A DNA stretch of 64,000 nucleotides from assembly GCA_030686115.1 (NCBI GenBank), contig CP131612.1:3361041-3425040 (forward strand). The letters are read 5' to 3'. Within the stretch, counting starts at the first letter, position 1. Each line of letters opens with the position of its first letter. Of the stretch, positions 349 to 19,163 are shown piece by piece. Below the pieces are notes generated by a model. The model was not told the origin of the DNA and did not search any database. It saw nothing but the letters and a program-made list of their open reading frames with translations. Source of the DNA: Psychrobacter cibarius. Its GTDB lineage: Bacteria; Pseudomonadota; Gammaproteobacteria; Pseudomonadales; Moraxellaceae. A program made the position numbers and the translations under genes.

Positions 349-371
349 CAGATGACGAATAGGGAAAAGCG

Positions 372-872: not shown

Positions 873-1037
873 GCATAAAACATATCAATAAAACATTACC
901 CTCAGCCTGAAAAGATAGAAACATTTATAATGACAGGCTGTTAAATAATTGAATTCATAACTTGCTGTGCTAAGGTAATGAGGGCTTGGAGCTAATACTC
1001 CAAAAAAGTATAAAATTGATAGCGTGGGTAAGTAATA

Positions 1038-1739: not shown

Positions 1740-1784
1740 AATTTGAACGTTAGAATGATTCATTTAAGCCATTCTTTGAAATCA

Positions 1785-2431
1785 TTATTTGCTCCGATAG
1801 CTCAGCGCCTCAGACACATGAGCGCTTGTAATATCGATACTGTCATCCAAATCAGCAATGGTACGCGCCACTCTCAATACTCGATGATAACCGCGTGCCG
1901 ATAAATTCAGACGCTGCTGAGCGAGCTGTAATAGTTGCTGTTCACCCTCTCCTAGTTGGATATATTTATCAATCTCGCTAGGGCTAAGCTCATTATTGAC
2001 CTTTTGTTGCCGCTGCATCTGATGTTTATGTGCGGCAATGACTCGAACGCGCACTTGTTCGGAGGTTTCGCCAGCTTGAGCATTTTGCAAATCGGCAATT
2101 GGCAGCGCAGGTACAGTGATATGCAAATCAATGCGATCAAGCAGTGGACCTGATAGTTTATCTTGATAACGTTTAATCTGTTCAGGTCGGCAGCGACAAC
2201 GCCCTGAGGTATCGCCATCATAGCCGCATGGACATGGATTCATGGCAGCGACCAATTGGAAATTTGCTGGAAAAGTCATCTGCGAGTTGGCACGGCTAAT
2301 GGTGATTTGCTTGGCTTCTAATGGCTGACGTAATACCTCAAGCACACTCCGATCAAACTCTGGCAATTCGTCAAGGAATAATACGCCCTTATTGGCAAGG
2401 GTAATTTCACCCGGTTTTGGTCGTGAGCCAC
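1785..2431 (-). pseudogene. comM: comM 3' fragment (interrupted by transposon)
   Basis: This is the C-terminal part of the ComM/YifB AAA+ protein. In frame up to the junction at 2431 it reads SRPKPGEITLANKG, then the Walker B region GVLFLDELPEF, then the NPCPCGYDGD...CRCRP cysteine cluster and the LSGPLLDRIDLHI segment of Mg-chelatase-like proteins. The Walker A half is at 17858-18793, so the insertion separates Walker A from Walker B. ComM is a hexameric helicase that drives branch migration during natural transformation. Joining the two pieces after deleting the transposon and one target copy gives an uninterrupted 525-codon frame. A short internal ATG start (2366) exists but would yield only a fragment. 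Confidence 0.95.
2427..2431. repeat. Target site duplication, left copy (GCCAC)
   Basis: GCCAC directly precedes the transposon tip TGTCAC. The same five bases follow the other tip at 17858-17862. Five base pairs is the duplication length produced by Tn7-like elements. Confidence 0.93.
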
Positions 2432-2440
2432 TGTCACTAT

Positions 2441-2566
2441 GCTAAATAGATGTCAAAATATTGACTTACAATAAGCGATTCAGAGTGTAAAACTACCCAA
2501 TAGATGTCATAATAAAACCCAATAAGAGACAATATTATATTTCTTATACCCAATAGGTGTCACATT
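2441..2566 (+). repeat. Left-end TnsB-type binding repeats (four copies)
   Basis: Four 19-bp direct copies related to ACCCAATAGATGTCATAAT occur at 2441-2459, 2495-2513, 2517-2535 and 2548-2566. The copies at 2495 and 2548 are the best; the one at 2517 has AGAGACA in place of ATGTCA, and the outermost begins GCTAAAT. Their order and orientation relative to the tip match TnsB sites of Tn7-like left ends. The innermost copy overlaps the GTG and the ribosome-binding region of tnsA, which suggests transposase autoregulation. Confidence 0.8.
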
Positions 2567-2568
2567 TT

Positions 2569-3222
2569 ATGGAACAAGTCAGGGTTATTAAGCCTACTCG
2601 TAGAAGTATGTCTGGGTATTACTGTCATCAAGGTATATCAATACCTTATGAATCTACATTAGAAAGAGATTTTGTTGTTTTCCAGACTTTTCGTAGCAAC
2701 GTCATTGAAGTCGTAGCCCAGCCTATAACTATTCCTTTTGAAAAGAATGGAAGGACTTATAACTATACTCCTGACTATTTTGTTCAGATAGATAACGATG
2801 GGGATCGATACAATCCTGATACTAAATCTCTAATTGTAGAGGTAAAACCTAGAGATGAATGGACAAGGCATTGGCGTGACTGGTCAGATAAATGGAAGGC
2901 TGCAAGAGAGTACTGCAAAGAGCATGACTATCGTTTCAAAATATACGATGAATCAAGGATTCGGCACCAAGGGTTAGCTAATGTAGATCATATCATGCGC
3001 TATGAGAGACTGAACTGTTCAAGAGATGATATTGAAACCATTTTAGAGCAAGTAGAAATGATGGGTACAACTACCATTGAGTATCTACTAGAAAGGTTCT
3101 TTATGGGTGATATATACCGTCCTCAGGGCAGACGCATCATTTATCATCTTATGGCAAATAAAAGACTAGGTTTTCATCTTTGGGATGAGATTAATGAAAA
3201 GACGGAGGTTTGGTATGTATAA
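2569..3222 (+). CDS. tnsA: TnsA-like transposon endonuclease
   Basis: A 217-aa protein from the ATG at 2569. An in-frame GTG at 2557 lies inside a TnsB repeat and is less likely as the start. The TnsA catalytic core is visible with ATG numbering: Glu32 in STLERDF, Asp69 in YTPDYFV, and Glu91/Lys93 in IVEVKPRDE. These are the PD-(D/E)XK residues that cut the 5' ends of the transposon, so the element should move by cut-and-paste. The C-terminal half looks like the helical TnsC-interacting domain. It is the first gene of the backbone operon and overlaps tnsB by 8 bp. It corresponds to tniC in Tn6022 nomenclature. Confidence 0.92.
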   Translation: MEQVRVIKPTRRSMSGYYCHQGISIPYESTLERDFVVFQTFRSNVIEVVAQPITIPFEKNGRTYNYTPDYFVQIDNDGDRYNPDTKSLIVEVKPRDEWTRHWRDWSDKWKAAREYCKEHDYRFKIYDESRIRHQGLANVDHIMRYERLNCSRDDIETILEQVEMMGTTTIEYLLERFFMGDIYRPQGRRIIYHLMANKRLGFHLWDEINEKTEVWYV

Positions 3223-5191
3223 GGATATGCATGACACAGATGAGGATGTAGAAATATCAGGGATTAAGTTAAAAAGAGGCGCTCTACAGCTTGCGAGTGG
3301 CAATATCTACAGCCATAAAACTAAAGACGTACAGTATAAGATGATTGAACTCATTGATATGAATCAGGCGCTGTTCAAGAACTTATCCACTCTCAAAAAT
3401 GAATTAATTAGCATTCATGATTTAGAGAACTCTACAAACCCACAGGGCACCATTATTAACGTGGATGCCGAATACATTAGTGATGCCGACTGGGAAAAAG
3501 CCCAAAGCAAGTACCTTGCAATTAAACCCTTATTATCGAGGGATAATGGCGGCTTGGCCTCTAAAGAGCTAGACATAAGAGCAGAGGAATGTAAGGTTTC
3601 AAGTAGAACGCTAAGGCGATGGGTGGATGCTTATCGATCGACTGGTTCTATCGCATCTTTGTTAGAAAAGAAACGAGGTTGGAACAAAGATAAAATAAGA
3701 CTAGATCATGCAACCGATACGCTTATCAAACAAGTCATTAATGACTTTTTCTTAACGCCACAACGCCCCACCGTAGAGGCAACGGTAAGACGAGTTCATA
3801 AGCTATGTCACGAGCAAGGTTGCAGTAAACCTAGCGCCAAAGCCATTAGATACCGTATAGACCAAGTATCTGAACCAACCGTGATGAAAAGGCGTGGTCA
3901 AAGAGAAAGAGCTAAGAATAAATTCACTCCTAAAACTGGACACTTTCCAGAGGTTTTTAACCCTTTAGATGTTGTTCAAATTGACCATACCCCTGCCGAT
4001 ATCATTCTCGTTGACGACAAGCATAGAAAACCGATTGGCAGACCGTGGGTAACTGTCGCAATTGACATATATAGCCGAATGATCACTGGCTACTATATCT
4101 CATTAGACGCCCCATCAGTAACCTCTGTAGGCATGTGCCTTTCACGCAGCATTTTATCAAAGGACGACCTACTCATTCAAAACGGTATAACAGATGCTGA
4201 ATGGAAAGTGTTTGGCTATCCTAGAAAAATTCATGTAGACAATGGGTCGGATTTTCGCTCAGATGATCTGAGAAAGTCTTGTGCGCTGCACGGTATCAAT
4301 ATTGAGTTTCGACCTTTAGCCCGACCTGAGTATGGCGGTCATGTGGAGCGCATGATTGGCAACTTAATGAAAAAGGTTCATGAATTACCAGGAACAACTT
4401 TTTCTAACATAAAGCAAAAGGATGAATATGACGCCGAAAAAAATGCATCTCTTACTCTTGGTGAGTTTGAAAAGTGGTTTTTAACTTATATTACTAAGGT
4501 TTATCATTTAAGTATTCATTCAGGGATAGAGAGAACACCTGCTAGACAGTGGGAAATTGGCATATTTGGTGACTCGTTTAGTGATGGTATAGGTATACCT
4601 TCACTACCTGTAGATGAGACAACTCTTAAACTTGATTTCATGCCCAGTTTTGAGCGCACAATACAAAGCTCAGGCGTTCGTATTGACGGCTTACACTACT
4701 ATGACCCTTGCTTAAATAACTACATAAACACTTCTGATAGTAAGAATGTAAAAAGTCAGTTTATATTCAGACGCGACCCTAGAGATATTAGCAAAATATG
4801 GTTTTACGACCCTGAGTTAAAACAGTATTTTATCATTCCTTTTGCCAACCAAACCTTACCGTCAATGAGTCTATGGGAATATCAACAAATCAGACGGCAG
4901 GTTAAGTTAGAAAATGGTACGAGCAATGAGCATCTAATCTACAAAGCATGGGATGACATGCAGACGCTAGCCGAAAATGCAGAATCAACCACCAAAACTC
5001 AGCGCAGAAGGAAACAAAGACGTAAAAGCCATGAAAAATCTCAAAAACGTTATGAGGTTATAGACGCTAAAAAAGATAAAGTTGACTCTACATTACCTGA
5101 TACAGTCCAGATAACTGATACTGCCAGTACAGACCCCCAAGCTGGTCCTGATGCAGACTATGGAGTGTACTTTTTTGAGGACATAGAATAA
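3215..5191 (+). CDS. tnsB: TnsB-like DDE transposase
   Basis: A 658-aa DDE transposase of the TnsB/TniA/MuA family. I chose the ATG at 3215 because GGAGG sits six bases upstream and the overlap with tnsA is then only 8 bp; an earlier ATG at 3185 would add ten residues. A helix-turn-helix region (SSRTLRRWVDAYR) precedes the catalytic core. The catalytic triad is Asp257 (VVQIDHTPAD), Asp342 (IHVDNGSDF) and Glu378 (YGGHVERMIG), with the D-35-E spacing of the family. The C-terminus is Lys/Arg-rich (about residues 590-625) and would contact TnsC. It cuts and joins the 3' ends and binds the end repeats. It corresponds to tniA of Tn6022. Confidence 0.95.
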   Translation: MYKDMHDTDEDVEISGIKLKRGALQLASGNIYSHKTKDVQYKMIELIDMNQALFKNLSTLKNELISIHDLENSTNPQGTIINVDAEYISDADWEKAQSKYLAIKPLLSRDNGGLASKELDIRAEECKVSSRTLRRWVDAYRSTGSIASLLEKKRGWNKDKIRLDHATDTLIKQVINDFFLTPQRPTVEATVRRVHKLCHEQGCSKPSAKAIRYRIDQVSEPTVMKRRGQRERAKNKFTPKTGHFPEVFNPLDVVQIDHTPADIILVDDKHRKPIGRPWVTVAIDIYSRMITGYYISLDAPSVTSVGMCLSRSILSKDDLLIQNGITDAEWKVFGYPRKIHVDNGSDFRSDDLRKSCALHGINIEFRPLARPEYGGHVERMIGNLMKKVHELPGTTFSNIKQKDEYDAEKNASLTLGEFEKWFLTYITKVYHLSIHSGIERTPARQWEIGIFGDSFSDGIGIPSLPVDETTLKLDFMPSFERTIQSSGVRIDGLHYYDPCLNNYINTSDSKNVKSQFIFRRDPRDISKIWFYDPELKQYFIIPFANQTLPSMSLWEYQQIRRQVKLENGTSNEHLIYKAWDDMQTLAENAESTTKTQRRRKQRRKSHEKSQKRYEVIDAKKDKVDSTLPDTVQITDTASTDPQAGPDADYGVYFFEDIE

Positions 5192-6084
5192 TGAGTAGTG
5201 ACAAGCCATACGTCCATGTTCTTGATAGGTTTCAGCATATCGTACCGCTATCAAACAGCGATAGAATCGCCTTTATTGATGAGCCTCGTTGGATTGGTTA
5301 CGAGAAGGCAAACAGAACGCTCAAAATTATGCAAAACCTGCTGAAAAAATCAAAGCAGCACCGCATGCCTAATATTATGATTATTGGGGACTCTAATAAT
5401 GGTAAAACGACGCTGATCAATAGATTTTACGAGAAGTTTGGCGAGGAATACATTAACGACTTTAAAGAATCAGTGGTGCCTGTAGTTTTAATCCAAGCTC
5501 CGCCAGTACCTAGTGAGAAAGAGCTTTATATTAGTTTGCTTGAAAAACTGGCATTACCTTACCGCTCTACCGATTCGACAGCCAAACTTCGTTATCAAGT
5601 TGTCCATGCCTTTAAGTGCTGTAACGTACAGGTATTAATAATAGATGAAATTCATTCTTTACTGACAGGAACAGCAAGGCAGCAAAGACAGATAATGAAC
5701 GTCATTAAGTATCTTTGTAATGAGCTTAAGTTACCCATTGTTGTAGCAGGTACAAATGATGCCATAAGAGTGCTTCATACTGATCCGCAGCATATCAGCC
5801 GCTTTGATGTTATTGAGCTTGAAAACTGGCGCAATAGTGAGGAGTTTAGACGGCTTGTGGGAAGCTTTGAGCTAATTATGCCTTTAAGAAAACCGTCAAG
5901 ACTTTTTGATCCTGATAAGACTCGCCTTATACATAGCATTAGTGAAGGCAAAATTGGTAATGTTAGGAGATTAATCTCTGAATGCGCTATAGAGGCCATA
6001 GAAACAGGGGTTGAGGAAATTACTGAGGACTCATTAAAGAAAAGAATATGCAAAAACAAGAGAGCCTACAGAGTAATAGAATAA
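5191..6084 (+). CDS. tnsC: TnsC-like AAA+ transposition regulator
   Basis: A 297-aa AAA+ ATPase. It has Walker A GDSNNGKT (residues 66-73), Walker B LIIDEIH (149-155), a sensor-like PIVVAGTND segment and an arginine-rich RFDVIELENWR region. TnsC proteins form filaments on target DNA and pass the signal from the target selector to TnsA/TnsB. It is short and lacks long N- and C-terminal extensions, more like TniB than Tn7 TnsC. Its ATG overlaps the tnsB stop (TAATG), indicating coupled translation, and its 3' end overlaps tniQ by 37 bp. Confidence 0.94.
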   Translation: MSSDKPYVHVLDRFQHIVPLSNSDRIAFIDEPRWIGYEKANRTLKIMQNLLKKSKQHRMPNIMIIGDSNNGKTTLINRFYEKFGEEYINDFKESVVPVVLIQAPPVPSEKELYISLLEKLALPYRSTDSTAKLRYQVVHAFKCCNVQVLIIDEIHSLLTGTARQQRQIMNVIKYLCNELKLPIVVAGTNDAIRVLHTDPQHISRFDVIELENWRNSEEFRRLVGSFELIMPLRKPSRLFDPDKTRLIHSISEGKIGNVRRLISECAIEAIETGVEEITEDSLKKRICKNKRAYRVIE

Positions 6085-7220
6085 AACCATTAACCATCAA
6101 GACACCACTATATTACGATGAAAGTATTAGCTCATGGCTAATTAGAGCAGCCTTAAATCAAGGCTGCGACATTTTAACTTTCACTCAATTTTATTGGCCT
6201 GACTATCGGCTGTGGACTTATGATGTAGACAAGGGTTTTAATCATATTGATGTGCAAATCCATAAAGACATGGCTGTTTTGGCTGGTATGCATTACCGAG
6301 CCTTTAACGCAAATACGCTGGTGAGTTTTGCTAAAAAAATGGGATTATCTGATAACTATAAACAAATCAATATACCGTGGACTCAACCACTGACCAAGCG
6401 CAATCGTAGAGCACTATTAGGGTATCAATACTGCCCACTTTGCATGCAGTCAGATAGTGATGCGAGATTGAAATTATCTTGGCGTTTCACATGGTCTTTG
6501 TATTGTGTTCAGCATCAAATAAAGCTGCAAAGTACTTGCACACAATGTCATCAGCCGTACCAGCCTCAATTGCTTGAAGCAAATATGAGATATATCAATC
6601 ACTGCCATAGCTGTAAGCATAAATTGTCTAAGGCAGCCGATAATAATCCTGCTTACTTGCTAGATGACTATTCTTACAAATTTCAAAGAATAGCCAGTAA
6701 GGTATATGTCGATGAATTTGGTTATTCGTTTGGTGAAAAAGTTTCGATGCAAGAGTGGTTTGAGCTTATGGCGTTCTACGTCAATATAGTAAGGCGCGGT
6801 GCAAGCAAACCCGACTATATGTTTGGCAAACTACTAAAGAGCTTTAGCATTAATGTAAACACCATGACTCCTCCTAAAACGGGACTTAGACTGAACCAAC
6901 TTCCTATTAATGAGCGTATTGAACTGCTAGGGTATGCTGCTCAATTAAATGATACTGATATAAACACTTGGATTAAAAAGTGCGAGGAAATATCCATAAC
7001 TCAGAATAGCTTTAATTGGAATAGAAAAACGCTTATCCCAGAACCTTTTAAGTCTATCTATATGCAGCTCCCCATTATCAAAAACCAAAAGCGTCAAAAT
7101 AGTCAGAACTTAAATACGCCAAGAGCGCCTGAATCAGTAATGAAACTATGGGAAAGACTCAAAAGAAAGACTGAAATGAGAGAGCTTTATGACCAAGACC
7201 GATTCAGCTACAAAGAATAA
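6048..7220 (+). CDS. tniQ: TniQ/TnsD family target-site protein
   Basis: A 390-aa TniQ-family protein. The N-terminus has the family signature (PLYYDESISSWLIRAAL, residues 20-36) followed by the aromatic FTQFYWPDYRLW region. A zinc-binding module begins CPLC at residues 129-132 and continues with WSLYCVQHQIKL, then CTQC and CHSC pairs. TniQ/TnsD proteins bind the attachment site directly and recruit TnsC. Given the insertion in comM, this is a strong candidate for the comM-recognising factor, alone or with the next gene. It overlaps tnsC by 37 bp and tniE by 32 bp. It corresponds to tniD of Tn6022. Confidence 0.93.
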   Translation: MQKQESLQSNRIKPLTIKTPLYYDESISSWLIRAALNQGCDILTFTQFYWPDYRLWTYDVDKGFNHIDVQIHKDMAVLAGMHYRAFNANTLVSFAKKMGLSDNYKQINIPWTQPLTKRNRRALLGYQYCPLCMQSDSDARLKLSWRFTWSLYCVQHQIKLQSTCTQCHQPYQPQLLEANMRYINHCHSCKHKLSKAADNNPAYLLDDYSYKFQRIASKVYVDEFGYSFGEKVSMQEWFELMAFYVNIVRRGASKPDYMFGKLLKSFSINVNTMTPPKTGLRLNQLPINERIELLGYAAQLNDTDINTWIKKCEEISITQNSFNWNRKTLIPEPFKSIYMQLPIIKNQKRQNSQNLNTPRAPESVMKLWERLKRKTEMRELYDQDRFSYKE

Positions 7221-8625
7221 ATGTGATTGGTGCGGCAATCATCCAGTCGATATTAAAAGACGATACAAGGGTGAAGGTTACTGTGCAAACTGCTATAAGA
7301 TATGGTTCATCAAGCAACCTTGCAGCCGATGCAGTACACTTAGTAGATTGCATAAAAAAGAACATGAGCCAATATGCCGTAAGTGTATTAGTGGTCAACC
7401 ATGCAAACGGTGCGGTAAAGACGCCTCCGTCAATGGTGCTAATACAGAGTATGGACGAGTATGCCAAATTTGCTATCAAGGCTACTTCAAGAAAAAGAAA
7501 ACATGCCAAGAATGTGGAAAGGATAAGATAGGGGTTTCTCGCTATGCTGAACTTCCTCACGACAATGAAGTTTGCGTATCCTGCTATCAAAGAGAAACAA
7601 GAAAGACCTGTTCTGCTTGTAGGCGATTTAGAAAAGTAATAGATACGCCTACAGGTGTTTTATGCCAGAAATGCCATGAATTAGGTAAAATAAACTGTCC
7701 TTGCTGTGGTGAGAATATGCCAGCAGGACAAGGGAAAGAGTGTGAAAGTTGCTATTGGGGTCATAGGTTACAGCGTGAGGTTGCTACCAATCTCTATTTA
7801 TTTAAGTCAGATAAAATAAAAATATCGTATGAGGCGTTCATCAAGTGGTTCATTGATCGCACTGACAACAAGAACGTTACTCTTGAACACTTAAAGTTTA
7901 CCGCCTTCTTTAAAACTTGCGATGATATATGGTCTGAAATACCCACGTATTCATCCCTTGTACAGGAGTTTAAGCCTGAGGGTCTACGTCACCATTTAAC
8001 TGTTTTAAGATGGTTGATAGACACGGAGCAAGTAGTTGTTGACTTAGAAGTTAAGCATGAAATTGCCGAAAAAGAGCGAATTGCAAATTTGCTGAATAAG
8101 TTTGAAGTCTTACCCAAAACAATAGAGTCTTACTATGCATTTCTTAACGAAAAGTTAGCTCTTAAGAAAACCTCTCTAAAATCCATCAGATTGGCTTTAC
8201 AACCTGCCGTAGGTATTTATGTGGAACTTGGTATTGATAGATGGGGAAAGCCCTCACAGGAGCAATTAAACGCCTATTTGAGGCTTAAGCGAGGACAAAT
8301 CAGTGCCATAACTGGCTTTGTATCTCATCTTAATCGAAAGTACGGAACTAATATTCAATGCAATCAGCCTGACCCAGAGACTCTTAGGAAAGATAGGCGT
8401 AAAATCTTGGAGAGAGACTTAATTGCTATCAGCCGTCTCCCCAATCCTACAAAAAAGGACTATGAAAGATGGATTATTATTAGCTTAGAGTATTTTCATG
8501 AACTTAAAATTATTAGGAAGACTTTAGCAACTCTAGATATCGAGCAAAACCAAGATAAAGCAATAGTTAAATATAATAAGCAAGAATACGTCATACCCTG
8601 TTTAGATAGCTTAAATGAAGTTTAG
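7189..8625 (+). CDS. tniE: TniE-like protein with six tandem zinc ribbons
   Basis: A 478-aa protein in two halves. Residues 8 to about 190 contain six consecutive CxxC...CxxC modules (pairs: CDWC/CANC, CSRC/CRKC, CKRC/CQIC, CQEC/CVSC, CSAC/CQKC, CPCC/CESC). The rest is helical and basic, ending in a region with an alpha-helical recombinase-like feel (LRLKRGQISAITGFVSHLN) but with no catalytic residues that I can identify. By position and overlap it is the fifth backbone gene, as tniE is in Tn6022/AbaR elements of Acinetobacter. A role in DNA or target recognition is inferred from the zinc ribbons. The same frame stays open for 19 codons beyond the TAG. Confidence 0.8.
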   Translation: MTKTDSATKNKCDWCGNHPVDIKRRYKGEGYCANCYKIWFIKQPCSRCSTLSRLHKKEHEPICRKCISGQPCKRCGKDASVNGANTEYGRVCQICYQGYFKKKKTCQECGKDKIGVSRYAELPHDNEVCVSCYQRETRKTCSACRRFRKVIDTPTGVLCQKCHELGKINCPCCGENMPAGQGKECESCYWGHRLQREVATNLYLFKSDKIKISYEAFIKWFIDRTDNKNVTLEHLKFTAFFKTCDDIWSEIPTYSSLVQEFKPEGLRHHLTVLRWLIDTEQVVVDLEVKHEIAEKERIANLLNKFEVLPKTIESYYAFLNEKLALKKTSLKSIRLALQPAVGIYVELGIDRWGKPSQEQLNAYLRLKRGQISAITGFVSHLNRKYGTNIQCNQPDPETLRKDRRKILERDLIAISRLPNPTKKDYERWIIISLEYFHELKIIRKTLATLDIEQNQDKAIVKYNKQEYVIPCLDSLNEV

Positions 8626-8776
8626 CCTGATATTTTGAAGCCTTATGTTGACGATCTACAACGCCATCTTTGGGAACTGAATTAAGATTGTCATCATTGA
8701 AGCGACAAAAATACCATAGCTGGTTAAGATACTTTGCACCCAAAAGTAGTATATTGAAACGGATTAGCAAAACATT
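8626..8776. other. Spacer between tniE and the cargo operon
   Basis: This 151-bp spacer separates the transposition genes from the restriction-modification cargo. I found no convincing terminator. A frame fragment reading LKRQKYHSWLRYFAPKSS runs toward the next ATG; it may be chance or the remnant of an earlier cargo gene. Confidence 0.3.
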
Positions 8777-9787
8777 ATGAATCTAAGTATTAACAATGAG
8801 TATAAAAGACACATGACACATTTAAAAGGCGCTGGTCTTTTTGGTCAAAACCTTTACAGTCCTAAAGCTAAAGACATGTATCAGAATAAAGAATCTAAAG
8901 TACAATTTAGTTCTGCTGACATCTCTGAAAATGATATTCGTGAACAGATGCCAGCCATACTTGATATATTATTGATTGACCGTACTACGTCAACATCAAA
9001 AAAGACAAGGAATATCATTTGGGCAAACGAGAACTATATACAATATGGTAGATACTATGGAGTCTCGCATCAAGTCAAACCTAAATTGATAACAGGTCAC
9101 ATGGGGCACATCATCATACCTCGTGCTTTAAAATCCGAATACGTGCAAAAAGAGCGCACCAAATCCAAGGCTGAGGTGTTCACCCCTACATGGATCATCA
9201 AAAAACAAAATGATGTGATTGATGCTAGTTACTGTGAGGATGATTTACAAACCTATATAAACCGCAAGTGGCTAGAGATTACCTGTGGTGAAGCGCCATA
9301 TATGGCAACTCGCTATGACATGGAGACAGGCAATATAGTACCCTTATCAGAGCGTGTAGGCTTTGTTGATCGTAAATTATCTCGTATTAATGCTGAGGTG
9401 GATGAAAAATCTGAATGGCAACAATTGGTAGAGAAAGCCTATAAAGCCAGTTATGGTTTTGAATGGAACGGGGATTCACTGCTATTAGCACGAGAAAATC
9501 TACTCTATACTTACTACGATTATCATGTAGCTAAATGGCAAGACAAACCAACGCATGAACACTTTGCGATTATAGCCAATATTATTAGCTACAATCTGTT
9601 TCAGATGGATGGCTTAAAATATATCATTCCATTATCCGACATACGAAAAAGACCTGTTAAAAGCCAGCTGAAACTTTTCGATGATAATATCTCTGATGGC
9701 AAAAGCCTTAGAAAAGCGGGCAAACGTGTCAGAATAATGAATTGGGACAAAAATAAGATGGAACTCTTTGACAAAGGATTAAGGTAA
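8777..9787 (+). CDS. Methyltransferase-like subunit of a restriction-modification cargo operon
   Basis: A 336-aa protein with two features of N6-adenine DNA methyltransferases: an EVFTPTWIIKKQND block (about residues 133-146, the target-strand 'FTP' region) and a SAM-binding motif I-like WLEITCGEAPYMATRYD (about 165-181). It has no (N/D)PPY catalytic motif, so it is unlikely to methylate DNA by itself. It is the first gene of a three-gene operon and lies 2 bp before the helicase gene. It is similar in style to proteins annotated as 'restriction endonuclease subunit M'. It may position SAM or DNA, or act as a partner of the NPPY protein. Confidence 0.7.
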   Translation: MNLSINNEYKRHMTHLKGAGLFGQNLYSPKAKDMYQNKESKVQFSSADISENDIREQMPAILDILLIDRTTSTSKKTRNIIWANENYIQYGRYYGVSHQVKPKLITGHMGHIIIPRALKSEYVQKERTKSKAEVFTPTWIIKKQNDVIDASYCEDDLQTYINRKWLEITCGEAPYMATRYDMETGNIVPLSERVGFVDRKLSRINAEVDEKSEWQQLVEKAYKASYGFEWNGDSLLLARENLLYTYYDYHVAKWQDKPTHEHFAIIANIISYNLFQMDGLKYIIPLSDIRKRPVKSQLKLFDDNISDGKSLRKAGKRVRIMNWDKNKMELFDKGLR

Positions 9788-9789
9788 TA

Positions 9790-12700
9790 ATGAGTAATTC
9801 CCCAAAAATAAAAACCACGAAAATTATTTATCCACAAATATATGCTTACATCTTACCAGAGGTTCCAACGAAGAATGGCTGGGTAAAAATAGGTTATACA
9901 GAGCGTAAAAATGCTGACGATCGCATTAAAGAACAGACCTACACAGCTCGACTCGACTACGAAAAGCTATGGTGTGAACCTGCTAAGTTCCTTGAATCAG
10001 ATGATTGGTTCACAGATAAAAATTTTCATAATTATCTAGTAAAGCATAAAAAAATAAAACGTTTAGATAAATCTGAATGGTTTTTCTATGAGCATGACCT
10101 GGAACAAAGATCTTATACTGATTATAAAAGCTTTTTAGAAAACCCTTATGATCAAGCTAAAGAAAAGGCTCAGTATCAGCTTAGAGATGAGCAAGCTGCC
10201 GCTGTGACACAAACCCTGAATTATATAAAATCTTATCCCAAAGGTGAGTTTCTATGGAATGCTAAACCAAGATTTGGGAAGACGCTAACAACCTATGACT
10301 TAGCTCGTAAGCTCAATGCAACCAAAGTACTTATTGTGACAAACAGACCAAGTATTGCTAACTCTTGGTTTGATGATTTCGAGAAGTTCATTGCGTGGCA
10401 AACTGACTTTGCATTTGTCTCTACCAGCGACTCGTTAAGTGAACGTCCTGTCATGAAAAGAGAGGAGTTTTTATCGCAGACAGCTACGGGCAAGAAAAGC
10501 ATGATCACCTTTATATCTCTGCAAGACTTAAAGGGTGCAGTCAGTTTTGGGGGTAGTTACGATAAACTTAGCTGGGTCAAAGATCTGTCATGGAATATGT
10601 TGGTTATTGATGAAGCTCATGAAGGGGTGGACACCCTTAAAACTGATTTGGCATTTGAAAATATTAAACGTGATTTTACTCTACATTTATCTGGTACACC
10701 TTTTAAGGCTGTGGCCACTGGTACATTTAGTGAAGATGAGATTTACAATTGGAGTTATGCAGACGAGCAACAGGCTAAAGCCAATTGGGATAATCCAGAT
10801 GAACACAATCCCTATGAAAAACTGCCTCGCTTAAATCTGTTTTCTTATCAAATGAGCCAAGCCATCACCGATGAGGTGAACAAGGGAGCAAAAATAGAAG
10901 GAGACAGCATTGATTATGCTTTCGATCTTAATGAGTTTTTCGAAACAAAAGACAATGGCAAGTTTGTTCATGAGGAATACGTAAAAAAATGGTTAGATTC
11001 ATTATCTCGCAATGAGAAGTACCCGTTTTCAACCAAAGCCTTGCAGGATGAGCTTAAACACACCTTTTGGCTATTAAACCGTGTTGCCAGCGCCAAAGCC
11101 TTACAAAAGCTGTTAAAAGAACATCCTGTCTTTAAGGGCTATGAGATTGTACTTGCCGCAGGTGATGGTCAAAGTCATGACAGTGATGTGATCAATAATG
11201 ATAAATCACTTGTTCGAGTCAAAGAGGCTGTTAAAACACATGATAAGACCATCACTTTATCTGTGGGTCAGCTAACCACTGGCATTACTATTCCTGAGTG
11301 GACAGCGGTATTAATGTTATCAAACATCAAGTCGCCTAGTCTTTATATGCAAGCTGCCTTCCGAGCACAAAACCCTTGGGAGTATCAAATCGATGGTCAG
11401 GTATATCAAAAAGAAAACGCTTATGTTTTTGATTTTGCACCTGAACGCACGTTAACCATCTATGAAGAATTTGCTAATGACTTATCTCGAAGAACAGTAA
11501 ACGGTGGCGGTACAGGCGATGATCGCAAAGAAAACATTAAGCATCTTCTAAACTTCTTCCCAGTTATCGCAGAAGATAACGATGGTAAAATGGTTGAGCT
11601 TGATGCTACTCAAGTGTTGACCATACCAAAAGCTATTAAAGCCCAAGAGGTAGTACGCCGTGGCTTTATGTCAAACCTACTGTTTAAGAATGTATCAGGT
11701 ATTTTTGCGTCACAAGAAGTTCGAGAAATTCTCGAAAATCTTAATCCAGTAGAGGTTGGCAAAACAGTTCCGCAAAAAACTCAAACCCCTATTGATACGC
11801 AAGATGTTAAGGTTGACAACAAAGGCGAGGCTCAAGTTGATGACGATATTGTGATATCGGAAACCGAAGCGCGATTTGGCGAAAAGACGTATGCTAACAT
11901 CCAAAAAACAGTAGAAACTTTTGGTGAGCTGCCCCAAGATAAACATGCAAAGGCAATTGAAGAAAGTTTTATAAAAAATGTCGAACAGGGAGTTAAGAAT
12001 ACCGCTAAAGATTATGATGTCACTCAAAGTTTTGCCGAAAATATTGTGAAAAACGCTGCTAAAGCAGTAGCTCGTGAAATTGAAATCTCACAAAGGCAGA
12101 CTGATATCAAACAAAAAGAGGCAGAAGTTGAGTATAAAAAAGAGATGACACAAGCTCATCTTAACGAAGTCGAAATGTCTAAAACTAAAGCTGCTTATGA
12201 ACTCAAGCAAAAACAGATCCAAGAGGGTTATCAAAAAGAAGTAGAAGCTAAAATTGCAGCTAAGACACAGGAGCTAGTAAAATCATCTAATGAGGCTATT
12301 TTACAAAAAGCCGAGGATAAAAAGAAAAACGTTGTTGAGAATGATGTTCGCGCTCGTTTGCGTGGGTTTGCCCGTACCATACCTTCATTTTTAATGGCGT
12401 ATGGCGATGCTGACACATTGCTTGGTAACTTTGATGAGTTTGTAAGCGACACTGTTTTCAAGCAAGTGACTGGCATTACGTTAGATCAGTTTAGAACGCT
12501 GCGTGATACTCATGATTTCTTTGATGAAACTGTATTCAACGAATCGGTTTTTGAGTTTCTCAAAAAGCGTAAAGAGCTTGCAAACTACTTCGATGAAAGT
12601 CAGGAAGAAGACATCTTTGACTACATTCCACCGCAGAAAACTAATCAGATATTCACCCCTAAAAAAGTGGTAAAAATGATGGTGGATAAACTTGAGCAAG

Positions 12701-13062
12701 AAAATCCAGATATATTCACTGATTCTAAGAAGACATTTGCTGATTTATACATGAAGTCTGGCTTATTTATTACTGAGATTGTAAAACGACTATATCTTGG
12801 GTTAGAGGGTGAAATACCCGATCCCAATAAAAGGCTAAAGCATATTTTAGAGAATCAAGTTTATGGCTTTGCTCCTAGTGAAATCATTTTCAATATTGCT
12901 CGTAACTTCATTTTTGGTTTTGATGAAAGAGCTGACACTATTGATAAATCACATATTGTTTACTTGGACACTACACCTTATGTTAAAGGTGAGACTGAAA
13001 TGAGTTTTGAAGAAAAATGCGATAAACTATTTGGTACTAGCGAGCCTGTGGAGAATAAGTAA
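9790..13062 (+). CDS. GIY-YIG-like nuclease / SF2 helicase / partial N6-adenine methyltransferase
   Basis: A 1090-aa multidomain protein. Residues 17-100 resemble a GIY-YIG/T5orf172 nuclease domain (IYAYILPEV...GWVKIGYTER). An SF2 helicase follows, with motif I AKPRFGKT (158-165), motif II DEAH (274-277), motif III LSGTPFKA and motif VI-like YMQAAFRAQNPW near 520. Residues about 740-870 are charged and helical, probably coiled coil. The C-terminus has a methyltransferase FTPKKVVKMMVDKLE block (near 952) and a motif I-like FADLYMKSGLF (983-993), then stops before any NPPY. The next ORF supplies NPPY. The architecture suggests an ATP-dependent translocating restriction enzyme of Type I/ISP flavour acting on invading DNA. 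Confidence 0.82.
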   Translation: MSNSPKIKTTKIIYPQIYAYILPEVPTKNGWVKIGYTERKNADDRIKEQTYTARLDYEKLWCEPAKFLESDDWFTDKNFHNYLVKHKKIKRLDKSEWFFYEHDLEQRSYTDYKSFLENPYDQAKEKAQYQLRDEQAAAVTQTLNYIKSYPKGEFLWNAKPRFGKTLTTYDLARKLNATKVLIVTNRPSIANSWFDDFEKFIAWQTDFAFVSTSDSLSERPVMKREEFLSQTATGKKSMITFISLQDLKGAVSFGGSYDKLSWVKDLSWNMLVIDEAHEGVDTLKTDLAFENIKRDFTLHLSGTPFKAVATGTFSEDEIYNWSYADEQQAKANWDNPDEHNPYEKLPRLNLFSYQMSQAITDEVNKGAKIEGDSIDYAFDLNEFFETKDNGKFVHEEYVKKWLDSLSRNEKYPFSTKALQDELKHTFWLLNRVASAKALQKLLKEHPVFKGYEIVLAAGDGQSHDSDVINNDKSLVRVKEAVKTHDKTITLSVGQLTTGITIPEWTAVLMLSNIKSPSLYMQAAFRAQNPWEYQIDGQVYQKENAYVFDFAPERTLTIYEEFANDLSRRTVNGGGTGDDRKENIKHLLNFFPVIAEDNDGKMVELDATQVLTIPKAIKAQEVVRRGFMSNLLFKNVSGIFASQEVREILENLNPVEVGKTVPQKTQTPIDTQDVKVDNKGEAQVDDDIVISETEARFGEKTYANIQKTVETFGELPQDKHAKAIEESFIKNVEQGVKNTAKDYDVTQSFAENIVKNAAKAVAREIEISQRQTDIKQKEAEVEYKKEMTQAHLNEVEMSKTKAAYELKQKQIQEGYQKEVEAKIAAKTQELVKSSNEAILQKAEDKKKNVVENDVRARLRGFARTIPSFLMAYGDADTLLGNFDEFVSDTVFKQVTGITLDQFRTLRDTHDFFDETVFNESVFEFLKKRKELANYFDESQEEDIFDYIPPQKTNQIFTPKKVVKMMVDKLEQENPDIFTDSKKTFADLYMKSGLFITEIVKRLYLGLEGEIPDPNKRLKHILENQVYGFAPSEIIFNIARNFIFGFDERADTIDKSHIVYLDTTPYVKGETEMSFEEKCDKLFGTSEPVENK

Positions 13063-14039
13063 TGGAATTTGATGTAGTTGTTGGTAACCCACCTTACCAA
13101 ATTGATACTAATGGTTCGGGAAGACAAGCTACCCCTGTTTATCAAAAGTTTGTGGAAGCTGCAATAAACTTACAACCGAATTATTTGGTTATGATCATGC
13201 CTGCAAGATGGTATTCAGGTGGGTTTGGCTTAGACTCTTTTAGAAAAAATGTTCTGAAAGACAAAAGGTTTAAAGAGTTATACGATTTTGAGTCGGCATC
13301 AAAAATTTTTCCAGGTGTAGATATAGCAGGAGGAGTTTGTTATTTTCTTTGGGACAAAAATTATAATGGACAATGTAAAGTTGTTAGTAGCAGAGACAAT
13401 GAAGTAAATTATAGGGATTTAGATGAATTTGATATATTTGTTAGGGATAATCAAGCACTAAATATTTTGAGAAAAATTCTAAAAAGTAGTGATTATAAAA
13501 ACTATGGTAGTTTAATAGATGTTGTTGGTTCCATTAGACCTTTTGATATACCAACTAATTATTCACCAAAAGATAAAGGGATTCCATGTTGGTTTAAGCA
13601 AAAGATTGGACTCAGTTATGCAGACCCTAATGACATAAAAGATAAAAACGAAATAATTAATAAATGGAAAATTCTAATACCTAAAGCTCCAATTGCGGGT
13701 CAAACGGATTTTACCAAGCCTATAAAAATCTACCATGAAAAAAACGTATTGATAGCTAAACCTGGAGAAATATGCACGGAATCATATATAGTTGCAGCAT
13801 CATTTGATTCCAGAGAAGAAGCAGAGAATTTTAGAAATTATCTCTTTACTAAAACTGTTAGACTTCTAATTTTATTAACTTTAATGTCTCAGGATGTTAA
13901 TAAAAAGAATTTTAGATTTGTACCTAATTTATCTGATTTCTGTAAACCCATTAATGATGATACTTTGAGAAAAATGTGGGATTTAAGTCCAAGCGATTGG
14001 GAATATATTGATAAAAGAGTTAAAGCTATAAGTGATTAA
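13062..14039 (+). CDS. Eco57I-type methyltransferase catalytic part (NPPY) with specificity region
   Basis: A 325-aa protein beginning MEFDVVVGNPPYQ, so motif IV (NPPY, residues 9-12) lies almost at the N-terminus. A PARWYSGGFGLDSFRK segment and the FPGVDIAGGVCYFLW block follow, both typical of Eco57I-class adenine methyltransferases. The C-terminal ~180 residues probably hold the target recognition domain. There is no SAM-binding motif I here; it is at the end of the preceding protein. The ATG overlaps the upstream stop by one base (TAATG), so the two are translationally coupled and presumably assemble into one enzyme. Confidence 0.82.
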   Translation: MEFDVVVGNPPYQIDTNGSGRQATPVYQKFVEAAINLQPNYLVMIMPARWYSGGFGLDSFRKNVLKDKRFKELYDFESASKIFPGVDIAGGVCYFLWDKNYNGQCKVVSSRDNEVNYRDLDEFDIFVRDNQALNILRKILKSSDYKNYGSLIDVVGSIRPFDIPTNYSPKDKGIPCWFKQKIGLSYADPNDIKDKNEIINKWKILIPKAPIAGQTDFTKPIKIYHEKNVLIAKPGEICTESYIVAASFDSREEAENFRNYLFTKTVRLLILLTLMSQDVNKKNFRFVPNLSDFCKPINDDTLRKMWDLSPSDWEYIDKRVKAISD

Positions 14040-14453
14040 GTCAACATTGAAGTTTTTCAAGGTAGTTGTCATTTATAAAAGCGCTAAATGCGCTTAAGGT
14101 ATGATAGATGCACCTGCACTCGGCTGCCTTTTACCACTCTTGCATTGGATCAACTGTACGATTAGTAACCCATAAAGTTTGAGCAATCATATGAATGATT
14201 CAATGCTCCTCTCACTGAAATTGAGAAAGCGATCAACCTAGTTATTGCAGGGGATGTCAAAGCATATCGAATGAATGCCGCATATGGCAAGATCTAGCGA
14301 TTTAAAAATATAGTAATATTCACGTTAATTTCGATTTACAACATCAATTAGTTTATTTGTATTCCATTGAGCGACTTTATGGGATAGGCATTAGTAAAAA
14401 TCTAATGCTTTTCCCAATAGATAAAAATATTTTTAGGATATAAGCTGACTGCT
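14040..14453. other. Cargo spacer with a degenerate ORF
   Basis: This 414-bp region separates the restriction operon from the convergent minus-strand genes. It contains a small inverted repeat (AAGCGC-TAAAT-GCGCTT, near 14078-14095) without a clear T-run, and the ORF remnant described separately. The remainder is AT-rich without recognised signals. Confidence 0.5.
14191..14297 (+). pseudogene. Remnant of a small ORF, apparently frameshifted
   Basis: From 14202 a frame reads NAPLTEIEKAINLVIAGD and ends MNAAYGKI with TAG at 14295-14297. It looks like coding sequence but has no start in that frame. An ATG at 14191 is one frame away, and a single-base change near 14203 would join the two into a 35-residue peptide. 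It may be the tail of a lost cargo gene. Confidence 0.3.
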
Positions 14454-15314
14454 TTATCTTAGTTCATAAGTTTCTGAGAAATCGTATTTGGGGAATGTAA
14501 CAATATAATCAGCACCATCCATACTTAGAACAGCTTCAATTTCAGGCTCTCCTTTATATCCACGCTTTACAAAAAGGCCGAGATAACCCTCTAATTTACT
14601 AGCAATTATATTCTGGAGATCTCTGAGGATGATTTTTTGTTTATCCACCTGTATGACTGACTGTACATTAAAACCCTGACCTGCAAAACCACCCCCAATT
14701 GGAAAGTATGATGGTCCTCCTTCAATAGAACTGATCACATTTACGCCAGCTTCTCGCAAACGTTTTCTTTGTTGTTCTGTTAGATTGTCAGATCCAAGAT
14801 CATCAAGCACTTTATATCCTTCTAGCTCCTTAGACCAGTTTCTATGCATGATTTCAACCACTTCTTTATTTTCCCAAGTTTTATGAGCGAATATTCCGAT
14901 AACGTAAAACTTATCATTAAAAAGCCAAGCAAAAACAAGAAACTCAGATCCTTTTTCAAAACTACCATCATCGTTTTCATTCAAATGAAAGTGATGGACA
15001 CCCCAGTCATTCAACATAGGATCTGTTTTATTGGGAGAAAATATTTTTTTGCTTAGATTCATAGTCAAGTCTTTACCGCTTTCAACCCTGCTTATAAGTC
15101 TGTTGAACCCTTCCTCTAGCTCTTTTGGACAAACAAAAGTGTCAGCTAAAATCACTTCACGTATCTTTTTCGCTGGTCGTCTACTTTCTGTATTAAAATA
15201 TAGTACTGGTATTTTGCTATCTGGCACTGATGCAATATTACAACCCCACTCATTACTTAGAGTGTTCTTTAAAATGTTAATCCAGTCACCGAAAAAATCA
15301 GCTTTTAATTTCAT
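14454..15314 (-). CDS. Uncharacterised cargo protein, 286 aa
   Basis: I do not recognise a named family with certainty. The middle of the protein (about residues 100-170) has a distinctive block, DWGVHHFHL followed by GSEFLVFAWLFNDKFYVIGIF and HRNWSKEL, which reads as a compact alpha/beta domain with conserved histidines. The C-terminal part has a glycine-rich IEGGPSYFPIGGGFAG segment. It has no signal peptide or transmembrane helices. It is encoded convergently to the restriction operon, inside the transposon. Cargo position makes a defence or stress role plausible, but that is inference from context only. Confidence 0.75.
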   Translation of the reverse strand: MKLKADFFGDWINILKNTLSNEWGCNIASVPDSKIPVLYFNTESRRPAKKIREVILADTFVCPKELEEGFNRLISRVESGKDLTMNLSKKIFSPNKTDPMLNDWGVHHFHLNENDDGSFEKGSEFLVFAWLFNDKFYVIGIFAHKTWENKEVVEIMHRNWSKELEGYKVLDDLGSDNLTEQQRKRLREAGVNVISSIEGGPSYFPIGGGFAGQGFNVQSVIQVDKQKIILRDLQNIIASKLEGYLGLFVKRGYKGEPEIEAVLSMDGADYIVTFPKYDFSETYELR

Positions 15315-15360
15315 TTTCAGTCCAATTTTATTTTTATGGCAAATATCGACTTCAATTTAT

Positions 15361-15389
15361 AGCATAGCTACGTTCAACGTATGCTAGCT
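15361..15389. repeat. Imperfect palindrome in cargo spacer
   Basis: AGCATAGCTACGTTCAACGT continues into ATGCT and forms a hairpin with a three-base bulge. It lies between two minus-strand cargo genes and has no T-run. It could be a weak terminator for the lipoprotein gene or a protein-binding site. Confidence 0.35.
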
Positions 15390-15460
15390 AATAAGATTAA
15401 AGATGCCATTTTCGGGTTGGCTATTTATCGCTTAATTTGATCGTTTGTTGATTCATAATG

Positions 15461-15865
15461 TTAAACATTGTTCTTTAGAGACTCTTGCTGCTCATCACAC
15501 ACCTTTAGACCTATATTTACAGCCACACTTAGGTCTGCTCCTGTGTTAATGCTATATGGTACGTTCGAGTGCATATCATCATATTTTAGAGCGTTAGCTG
15601 CTGCTTTATTAAGTGGTGTGCCAATATAAGACTCATCGGTGAAACCCTCTGGCGCAAAATACACCTCACGACCGAAAGCTGGATGGAAACCGCATGATAT
15701 TTCTCCGTAAGCTACGGTAAACGGATATGGCGATGAGTGTTCAAGCGACCACTGCATCTCATTCACGTTAATAAAACCAGAACCGTATAGATCGTCATGT
15801 TCTTGCGCCACAGGACTACATGCCACAATTAGTAACAAGCTTAGACTTAGCATTAATTTATTCAT
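15461..15865 (-). CDS. DUF2511 (YebY-like) lipoprotein
   Basis: A 134-aa protein from the ATG at 15865, which has GAGG about eight bases upstream; an earlier in-frame ATG at 15880 would add five residues. The signal peptide MNKLMLSLSLLLIVAC ends in a lipobox cysteine, so it should be lipidated. The mature part matches the DUF2511 pattern: a Trp in MQWSLEHS, a first cysteine in YGEISCGFHP, a PLNKAAANAL segment, and a final cysteine in IGLKVCDEQ. The two cysteines could form a disulfide. It is unusual cargo for a defence transposon and has no obvious functional partner here. Confidence 0.75.
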   Translation of the reverse strand: MNKLMLSLSLLLIVACSPVAQEHDDLYGSGFINVNEMQWSLEHSSPYPFTVAYGEISCGFHPAFGREVYFAPEGFTDESYIGTPLNKAAANALKYDDMHSNVPYSINTGADLSVAVNIGLKVCDEQQESLKNNV

Positions 15866-15922
15866 TGCTATTGACCTCACAATTTAAGAGAAATAAACTA
15901 GCTATCCACACTTGCTAAAAGT

Positions 15923-17689
15923 CTAGTTATGTAATGCGTCATTAATCTTATTTACCCCAGTTAATATCCAGTTGTTGTCATCATTAATAGCAGTAGTATG
16001 TTTGAATGTACTTAATCGACCTTCAAAAGCATCTATAAACTCTTTGGGTAAAGAGCCTGATGGGTAGTTATTAATAGATACAATGATCGCAAGCAAGCCT
16101 TCATCGTTTTCTGCGTCTAAAAACTGCTTTTCGTCAGCTACAATTATAATAACTCCACTCATTCCAGAGTCAGTGCCGACTTTTTCATGACTATCTAATA
16201 TGTAATATACGTTCTTATCAACGACTACTCTAATTACAATAAGCTCTTGTGGGTAGGGAGATAAACCTTTGCTTATACTCGTTAAGGACATAAGCTGATA
16301 ATCGTCACTACTGTTAAATCCAAGTCGATAGGTGAACCATTTCGCCCTCTCAGGCTCATTAGAACCGCTTAATGCCTTAGCATGTCCCCATAATTTCTGA
16401 ATCCTCGAACCTTTTGTTTTTTCAGGCTCAACATCCTCAAAGCAAAAGGCTGCATATCCAATATCGCCTCTACTATTGGAAACATTGCCAGATGCATAGC
16501 TAGACGGTTCTGCACCGTAAAGAGGGTATTTTGTACCAGCTTGTTCCGCTTCTATTTTTTGTTGATGAATTTTCATTGCTATCTTTTTTCCCAATATTTT
16601 CATTGCCTGTCTAACGGTTGCTGTTTCCATGTTGTTAGCAGGATGATCGGGATTAAGCGCTATATCCTCTGTTTGTTCTCTCTTTTTTACTGGGTAGAAA
16701 AATATGTCTTTTCCTTCATCAATACCTTCAACTGGGTTCTTAAAACTAGGGCTAGCGACAACATTAATTTCATCACAGTCAATAAAATCTGGTTCCGATA
16801 TACCTTTAATGCTAGTGCATAGTATTGTACTGTCATCTAATCGAGTTCCCTCAAATAGCACCTGAATATCATCATCATGCCAAGGCTTTACTTTTAAGTT
16901 AATTTTATAAGGATGTGTACGCAATTGGGTTCGTATATATTGATTAAAATCTCTTACTATATTTCTAGTATGATCACTCGTTTTTATGAAATGTAGTAAG
17001 ACACTATCTCTTATTACGAATTTCTTAGGTAAATACACCAAATTAGGGATTTGTTGGTAGCTTGCGTCACAGTAGTTTAATAGACACCTACTGATAAAAT
17101 CCTCTCCGTGAGAGTAATGAATATTATTTTCCAGCCCCCAATTGAGTGTCATTAAAACTCTCTTAATCTCCATTGAATAGCCAAAATGGGCAATAAAGAA
17201 CAATACAGGGTGAATAAGAATGGTGTCTTGATTTGCTCCTACATTACTTACTCTGACAATAGAATGCTCGTTTTCTAGCATTTTGTAGACAGGGTAAACA
17301 TCATTAAGGTGCTCGTTTAGCTCAACTCTTTTGCCTTCACTATGATCGTATTCAGCACTATCACCTAGATTAATCTCAAATTCATCAAGTACAAATTTAG
17401 AGTCACATATCCCATTTTTCCATATCGATCCTATTGGCATCTTTGATATAGCGCCAAAAGGAACTTCTAACTCTGGTTGAAAATAAGGATTTGCATCATC
17501 TATATTGAATAACACGACTCTTATTAGTAATTCCGAGTTGTCTGCAAAATTCCTAGCTAAATTAGAGTACCAGACGACTGTATATCGTTGATATGATCTT
17601 AATCTTGGATTGCTCTCAAAGTAACCTTTAAGGTTTATGCTGGCCTTATAAGGCTCTATTTTATTGTCTTTAAATGGAGGGAATACCAT
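15923..17689 (-). CDS. Possible TnsE-like transposition protein
   Basis: A 588-aa protein at the right end of the element, transcribed inward on the minus strand. The N-terminus (FPPFKDNKIEPYKASINLKG) resembles the FNDN...HIGHLF start of Tn7 TnsE as I remember it. The last ~130 residues follow the order of the TnsE C-terminal domain: a strand pair (LIVIRVVVDKNVYYILDSHE), a GMSGVIIIV segment, NNYPSGSLPKEF (compare LNWPNSLFDQL), KHTT (compare NHPKGL) and a Trp near the end. The middle is poorly conserved. TnsE directs Tn7 to replicating DNA through beta-clamp contact. This is pattern matching from memory; an unrelated cargo protein remains possible. Confidence 0.5.
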   Translation of the reverse strand: MVFPPFKDNKIEPYKASINLKGYFESNPRLRSYQRYTVVWYSNLARNFADNSELLIRVVLFNIDDANPYFQPELEVPFGAISKMPIGSIWKNGICDSKFVLDEFEINLGDSAEYDHSEGKRVELNEHLNDVYPVYKMLENEHSIVRVSNVGANQDTILIHPVLFFIAHFGYSMEIKRVLMTLNWGLENNIHYSHGEDFISRCLLNYCDASYQQIPNLVYLPKKFVIRDSVLLHFIKTSDHTRNIVRDFNQYIRTQLRTHPYKINLKVKPWHDDDIQVLFEGTRLDDSTILCTSIKGISEPDFIDCDEINVVASPSFKNPVEGIDEGKDIFFYPVKKREQTEDIALNPDHPANNMETATVRQAMKILGKKIAMKIHQQKIEAEQAGTKYPLYGAEPSSYASGNVSNSRGDIGYAAFCFEDVEPEKTKGSRIQKLWGHAKALSGSNEPERAKWFTYRLGFNSSDDYQLMSLTSISKGLSPYPQELIVIRVVVDKNVYYILDSHEKVGTDSGMSGVIIIVADEKQFLDAENDEGLLAIIVSINNYPSGSLPKEFIDAFEGRLSTFKHTTAINDDNNWILTGVNKINDALHN

Positions 17690-17809
17690 AATAGTAAATC
17701 ACTTTATAAATAGAAATTGTCGTTCAATACGTCACAATCAATAAAATAGATCGCTAAAAGTCGCCTTTAGCGCGTCGGCTAAGGCGAGATAATAAATCAT
17801 TTAATTAGC

Positions 17810-17848
17810 AGTTTGACAGGAATTGGGTAGGAATGACATTAATTGGGT
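17810..17848 (-). repeat. Right-end TnsB-type binding repeats (two adjacent copies)
   Basis: Read inward from the right tip, two 19-bp copies occur: ACCCAATTAATGTCATTCC at 17848-17830 and ACCCAATTCCTGTCAAACT at 17828-17810, one base apart. They are inverted relative to the left-end copies. The outer one starts ten bases from the tip, as on the left. I did not find further good copies inward. Confidence 0.82.
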
Positions 17849-17857
17849 AAAGCGACA

Positions 17858-17862
17858 GCCAC
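17858..17862. repeat. Target site duplication, right copy (GCCAC)
   Basis: GCCAC follows the right tip directly and matches the left copy at 2427-2431. The duplicated bases fall in the codons of the VGGGS segment of comM. Confidence 0.93.
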
Positions 17863-18793
17863 CACCCACCAAAGCCACGGCTGATATAGTGTGATGAACC
17901 TGCCTAAACGGTCTTGTCCCATAATCGTAATCGCTGTCTGCCACTGAATAAGTACTGGCAACTTCTAATGCATCTTCATCACTTAAATCCGGCAATATGG
18001 TCGGCAGCCTTGACGCCATTAACGTCTTGCCTGAGCCGGGTGGCCCTGTAAATAACAGCGAATGACCACCAGCAGCGGCAATCTCTAGCGCGCGCCGTGC
18101 ATGATGCTGTCCTTTGACATCAGCCAAATCCACTTGATAGCCAACATGCTGCTGTGCTGGACTGGGTTGTACAACGTCCAAAGAGTCATAGGCTGCGCTT
18201 GGATTGGCTAACGACTGTAAGTGGTCACAAACTGTCTTTAAGCTTTGCGCGGCTAGTATCGTCACGCCATCCACACGGCTGGCCTCAGCACCATTATCAA
18301 TCGGTACGATAAGCTGCGGTGTTTGTGGTTTTGGCTGCGGTTCGCTCAGCTCCTGTTCAGTAATATTTGCCACCTGCAATACTTTGGACGCCAGCGCCTC
18401 AGCTTTGATCGCTCGTGCCACCGCTAAGCTGCCTGTCACTTGCCGTAAATTCCCATTGAGCGCTAACTCACCGATAAACTCAAACCCTGATAATACTTCT
18501 GGATCCAATTGATCACTGGCTGCCAAGATTCCGATGGCAATCGGTAAATCAAGACGCGCGCCATCTTTAGGCAAATCAGCGGGGGCTAAATTGATAGTGA
18601 GACGACGATTAGGAAATTGAAAGCCAGAGTTCAGAATCGCAGAGCGTACACGGTCTTTACTCTCACGTACCGCCGCCTCCGGCAAACCGACGATGGTCAA
18701 TGCTGGCAACCCTTGTGACAGATGCACTTCAATAATGACCTTGGGCGCATGCAGTCCGACGACTGAACGAGTATAGACTTGGGCAAACGACAT
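17858..18793 (-). pseudogene. comM: comM 5' fragment (interrupted by transposon)
   Basis: This is the N-terminal 312 codons of ComM/YifB. I chose MSFAQVYTR (ATG at 18793), with AGGA nine bases upstream; an ATG two codons earlier (18799) is closer to the usual minimum spacing. Family hallmarks are present: LPALTIVGLPEAAVRESKDR, INLAPADLPKDGARLDLPIA, and Walker A TGPPGSGKTLMASRLP. The true coding frame ends at VGGG at the insertion; beyond it the ORF runs about 19 codons into transposon DNA and stops at 17801. Loss of the Walker B half should abolish ATPase function. Confidence 0.95.
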
Positions 18794-18799
18794 CAGCAT

Positions 18800-19163
18800 T
18801 TTCCTAATATAGGGAATAATTGATAATAGAGCATTATGTATCAGTGCGCAAATGTCGTGTTTTCTTGTCTCATTTTATTTACTAGCATAGTTATCAACAG
18901 TTGTTATATGATAAACGGATGCTCTTTCGCTCAGTCTTATTCGGCTATGCTGCCCCAAAGATTATCCAAAGGTTCTCACCCCTGTTAACCACGTTATTAA
19001 CGTATTGGATAATTTTAATCGTGCTACAAAGTATTAAAGATTAGCAAGAGTATTGGCAATAAAAGGATTTTATTGATCATATAAAGTTTGCTGGCGGCTT
19101 TTTGCTGCAGATTTATATAACACCTACTTTATATAATACCCACTACCATGGATGGATAAGCTT
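18800..19163. other. Divergent intergenic region
   Basis: This 364-bp spacer between the broken comM and the acylase gene should hold both promoters. It is AT-rich, with no repeat or terminator that I can support. Confidence 0.5.

Follow-up and report, generated by a model that had tools for sequence, protein, structure and literature searches.

Structurally intact Tn7-like transposon in comM of Psychrobacter cibarius, a member of the Tn6022/Tn6019 family

The window analysed here, a 64,000-nucleotide stretch of the Psychrobacter cibarius genome (contig CP131612.1, positions 3,361,041 to 3,425,040), carries an element within comM that can be assigned, with a probability of about 95%, to the comM-targeting Tn6022/Tn6019 family of Tn7-like transposons, as a structurally intact new member of this known and experimentally studied group. 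The tips TGTC...GACA of the 15,426-bp element and the two identical copies of the flanking 5-bp duplication GCCAC can be read directly from the sequence, exactly where the original prediction had placed them (Table 1). The left end holds three TnsB-type 16-mers resembling TACCCAATAGATGTCA and the right end two, each oriented inward, and the outermost ones start at the ninth base of each end (2440 left, 17849 right). Symmetric repeats ten bases from the tips had been predicted, of which the spacing holds within one base while the symmetry is incomplete, with an unequal number of sites and 17/30 identical bases between the outermost 30 of either end; TGTC and the TnsB-type site are conserved, and the inverted repeats of the family measure approximately 26 bp. 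A scan of the whole 64 kb with the copy at 2494-2509 as consensus (its own match by construction) and at most three mismatches returned six matches, five at the two element ends and the sixth at 20717; ten control sequences made by Markov shuffling of the 15.4-kb element gave a mean of 0.3 matches each.

Removal of the element together with one GCCAC copy restores comM in frame through VGGGSRPKPG, as predicted, with the 525 codons of the prediction counted from the second methionine and 527 from the first ATG. A set of 105 Psychrobacter genomes was searched with the joined ComM protein, as had been suggested along with the original prediction. comM is one stretch, from residues 1-3 to 526/527, in 88/105 genomes (G073 with a TAA counted inside is among them), in two pieces with a single open frame in five (G001, G010, G031, G076, G101), and interrupted in nine, where Tn7-like genes lie between the parts or next to one of them; G062, G075 and G087 were counted as unresolved. 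The insertion site is uninterrupted in the 11/11 closest comM copies (L011-L021), which differ from the joined window site at 1-4 of 120 nucleotides, all retain GTGGC and are 97.0-98.2% identical to the joined gene over 1,584 nucleotides, and nine further, more distant copies read G-N-GG-C/T at this place. As none of the 11 closest comM loci carries the element, its insertion into comM is probably recent. This absence equally bears on the unlikely alternative that the element, structurally complete but immobile, is a fixed, vertically inherited island, a question of its activity and not of its identity: the search with TnsF finds a single copy in its own genome, in line with immobility, but open tns frames, sites kept at both ends and a perfect duplication speak against it.

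The transposition genes follow the order tnsA-tnsB-tnsC-tniQ-tnsF (tniCABDE), with tnsE on the opposite strand, and all frames are open. Fold lists for TnsF, the predicted comM target selector, are topped by LIM-type and recombinase rows, both under the strict confidence mark, and an alignment of 33 sequences (the window protein and 32 of 120 listed matches, picked for spread) contains 24 invariant cysteines.

Table 1. Coordinates of the comM element and its parts in the window
Feature	Position	Strand	Evidence or remark
comM 3' part	1785..2431	-	
Target site duplication, left copy GCCAC	2427..2431	.	same 5 bp at 17858-17862
Complete Tn7-like element, 15,426 bp	2432..17857	+	tips, duplication, empty site in relatives
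Left-end TnsB-type site 1	2440..2455	+	
Left-end TnsB-type site 2, reference copy TACCCAATAGATGTCA	2494..2509	+	
Left-end TnsB-type site 3	2547..2562	+	
tnsA (tniC), endonuclease	2557..3222	+	start GTG 2557 or ATG 2569; Pfam Tn7_TnsA-like_N E 9.5e-18
tnsB (tniA), DDE transposase	3185..5191	+	Pfam Mu-transpos_C E 4e-11; rve slightly under cut-off; PADLOC TnsB E 2e-46
tnsC (tniB), AAA+ regulator	5191..6084	+	Pfam TniB E 4.6e-71
tniQ (tniD), short adaptor, 390 aa	6048..7220	+	Pfam TniQ E 9e-17
tnsF (tniE), predicted comM target selector, 478 aa	7189..8625	+	zinc-ribbon array and tyrosine-recombinase-like region
Cargo DNA methyltransferase (MT1)	8777..9787	+	PADLOC MTase_II E 5.8e-78
Cargo restriction subunit	9790..13062	+	T5orf172-type N-terminus (weak, under Pfam cut-off) and superfamily 2 (SF2) helicase (ResIII)
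Cargo Eco57I-type methylase/specificity part (MT2)	13062..14039	+	starts at NPPY motif; Pfam Eco57I E 4.6e-21
Cargo PD-T4-7 defence-protein homologue, 286 aa	14454..15314	-	PADLOC PD-T4-7 E 9.5e-30 (PADLOC family name)
Cargo small lipoprotein-like protein	15461..15880	-	signal read by eye; 64% homologue in L033
tnsE (orf4), predicted second target selector, 588 aa	15923..17689	-	recognised by fold only
Right-end TnsB-type site 2	17814..17829	-	
Right-end TnsB-type site 1	17834..17849	-	
Target site duplication, right copy GCCAC	17858..17862	.	read directly
comM 5' part	17858..18799	-	

The likeness to the Tn6022/AbaR backbone that had been predicted extends to gene order, target gene, position, duplication length and the GCCAC sequence itself; TnsF and TnsE had not been named at that stage. 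In a TnsB tree of 26 rows, from which L049-L051 were omitted as copies, with identical proteins merged (L038 and L054 are not shown) and with the loci lacking a long TnsB match as well as L094 and L095 left out, the window protein groups with that of L037 from Psychrobacter sp. FME13 (G067; 70% identity) and then with Acinetobacter genomosp. 15BJ (L053), with support of 100/99 at each node; TnsF of these two loci is 49% and 48% identical to that of the window, respectively. The comparison element on an Acinetobacter baumannii plasmid, whose cargo of uspA and an anion transporter leads us to place it with the Tn6022 type, is more distant, with identities of 33% for TnsA, 43% for TnsB, 41% for TnsC, 27% for TniQ and 29-34%, by pieces, for TnsF. 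Because backbone identity to this plasmid element amounts to 27-43%, the window element appears, as far as compared, to be distinct from Tn6022 itself. Canonical Tn7, with a large TnsD and an attachment site at glmS, is ruled out by the 390-amino acid TniQ and the comM site.

Among described elements, Tn6022 of Acinetobacter johnsonii (AjTn6022) shares tnsABC-tniQ-tnsF, the opposite-strand tnsE and the comM target, with a family TniQ of 369 amino acids compared with 390 in the window and a TnsF of 498 compared with 478, and the zinc fingers and inactivated tyrosine-recombinase region described for the TnsF of this family (PMC10293859) correspond to the zinc array and recombinase-like region of the window protein. 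The likeness to AjTn6022 is one by description, and host genus and cargo differ. Tn6929 of Acinetobacter variabilis, likewise compared by description, has tniCABDE, orf4, the 5-bp duplication GCCAC and the comM location of the family, while another cargo is described; its duplication lies where Tn6019, Tn6022 and the AbaR/AbGRI islands insert (PMC12904642). No title or abstract found in a literature search that included Psychrobacter, comM and Tn7 describes the window element, and the two papers that the combination of these with transposon returned both concern A. baumannii by title.

That a different kind of comM element is present, either Tsy, a transposon of the tyrosine-recombinase kind, or a Tn7 element directed by guide RNA, verges on the negligible. 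Tsy, described from Zoogloea, likewise uses a TnsF homologue for entry into comM, but it is recombinase-based without TnsABC (PMC10293859), whereas the window holds tnsA-tnsB-tnsC, TnsB-type ends and a 5-bp duplication. With its tyrosine recombinase and helix-turn-helix genes and no Tn7 genes, Tsy is ruled out by gene content. No recombinase or Cas family was found among the ten proteins scanned, the PADLOC models derived from CRISPR-associated transposons matched TnsB, TnsC and TniQ only, and there is no Rfam match in 1-20000, where no dedicated search for CRISPR arrays was made.

By analogy to the A. johnsonii relative, TnsF would bind double-stranded comM DNA around the conserved Walker B codons and contact TniQ, upon which the signal would pass through TnsC, and TnsA and TnsB would cleave the transposon ends and attach these at the GGGS codons, with the 5 bp filled in. 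In the described experiments with the A. johnsonii element, loss of any of the five proteins impaired transposition, deletion of the neighbouring 40-50 bp, to the left or to the right of the insertion point, led to less transposition and a 10-bp stretch within Walker B was required (PMC10293859). In the window comM, the FLDE codons of Walker B start 48 bp past the duplication, a position which fits this published deletion mapping. TnsE would provide a second route, to conjugating plasmids. The insertion breaks comM, the product of which aids recombination of transforming DNA, and, speculatively, less transformation may favour the element. In the wider literature, breakage of comM is also considered to guard the element from removal by transformation, which is equally speculative here. 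According to a suggestion in PMC10293859, a broken comM could restrict the transformation of other mobile elements.

The same position in comM is occupied in other genomes. TnsF homologues are encoded by 8/105 genus genomes, that of the window included, and the GGGS codons of comM are interrupted in six (G000, G006, G013, G025, G067 and, on the 5' side only, G086). All seven elements at this site for which both junctions are present in one locus, those of the window, of three other Psychrobacter and of three Pasteurellaceae, possess matching 5-bp duplications (GTGGC, GAGGG, GTGGT, GTGGC, GCGGC, GCGGT and GTGGT); the count covers the GGGS site, while L040, at another site with both junctions in one locus, lacks a duplication. 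In G067, GGGGC stands on both sides of the element, as read across two contigs, and at seven more loci (one Acinetobacter and six Pasteurellaceae, two of them of one species) the tnsA-side junction alone lies at the same place. In favour of insertion through TnsE, or of homologous exchange of an interrupted comM from another species, instead of TnsF-directed insertion, are the same-backbone elements L036 and L037 of G067, for which no comM was found on the locus stretches examined, and a possible exchange of comM by transformation; still, such a route is very improbable, as different backbones hit the identical base position in Psychrobacter and Pasteurellaceae and the joined comM of the window closely matches, at the identity given above, the intact copies of its 11 closest relatives.

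G067 harbours three such transposons in one genome, among them L037, whose TnsB is the nearest relative of the window protein. The transposon DNA of L031 (G006) is 99.7% identical over 11,035 bp to that of L052 from Photobacterium carnosum and, judged from this identity, passed between the two families very recently; within the L052 locus stretch examined, comM was not found.

The cargo had been predicted to be unlike that of AbaR, and it does differ. MT1, the T5orf172/ResIII helicase and the Eco57I methylase constitute, from their domains, a restriction-modification set, and together with the PD-T4-7 homologue the cargo likely consists of anti-phage genes; defence cargo including restriction-modification is already described for Tn7-like elements (PMC8649781). 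A cassette of methyltransferase, helicase and methylase lies 3' of tnsF in three comM elements of this backbone family at the GGGS site, that of the window (8777-14039), of Psychrobacter immobilis A352 (L033, with L051; 7562-12842) and of Caviibacterium pharyngocola (L062; 11808-16890). The window cassette shares 79% identity in MT1 and 83% in the helicase with that of L033, and 65% and 67% with that of L062, whereas MT2 is only 26% and 27% identical, and TnsE 28.5% to that of L033. The first 25 residues of the window MT2 are well kept (62-64%), and identity thereafter is 16-37% in every block with at least 14 aligned residues; the MT2 proteins of L033 and L062 are closer to each other, with 29-79% in such blocks. 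The recognition part of the window MT2 thus looks as if it had been swapped.

A second lineage of Tn7-like elements in comM of Psychrobacter, L040 (G089), L041 and L043 (G066) and L038 (G086), encodes a short TnsF that lacks the zinc array (293 amino acids in L040), close copies of which, at least 85% identical, occur in 3/348 Moraxellaceae genomes. Short TnsF-like frames of 215-260 amino acids with 22-28% identity are present in G126, G131 and G137, read as Acinetobacter. The left tip of this lineage lies at the CPCG codons of comM in 3/3 genomes, approximately 200 bp downstream of the GGGS site, and the right tip lies at a differing codon upstream, ~252 in G089 and ~64 in G066 (read over two contigs), where a duplication is absent and the comM in between is missing; the 5' piece of comM in G086 ends in a tip of the first lineage, that of the window element. 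In the TnsB tree, Pasteurellaceae elements with a TnsF of full length form the sister group of the pair L040/L041 (94/93, below the level starred by the tool). It is a tentative idea, in our view rather doubtful, that the zinc array of TnsF helps to set the landing position within comM. In G066, a match to first-lineage tnsA and part of tnsB (L041, 7692-8700) directly follows the second-lineage tns genes, which suggests stacked insertions in comM. A third, distant Tn7-like element occupies comM at codons ~391-392 in G104 (L044 and L045), with TnsA and TnsB 26% and 37% identical, a 341-amino acid TniQ and, as read across two contigs, GTCGC at either junction; no TnsF match was obtained within the L044/L045 stretches examined.

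One exact comM position is thus used from Moraxellaceae to Pasteurellaceae, and a family best known from the resistance islands of Acinetobacter extends to Psychrobacter, with likely defence cargo. If the zinc array does take part in positioning, the lineage with the short TnsF would represent an experiment of nature on domain loss in target selection. Natural variants of TnsF could reveal which domain sets the insertion point.
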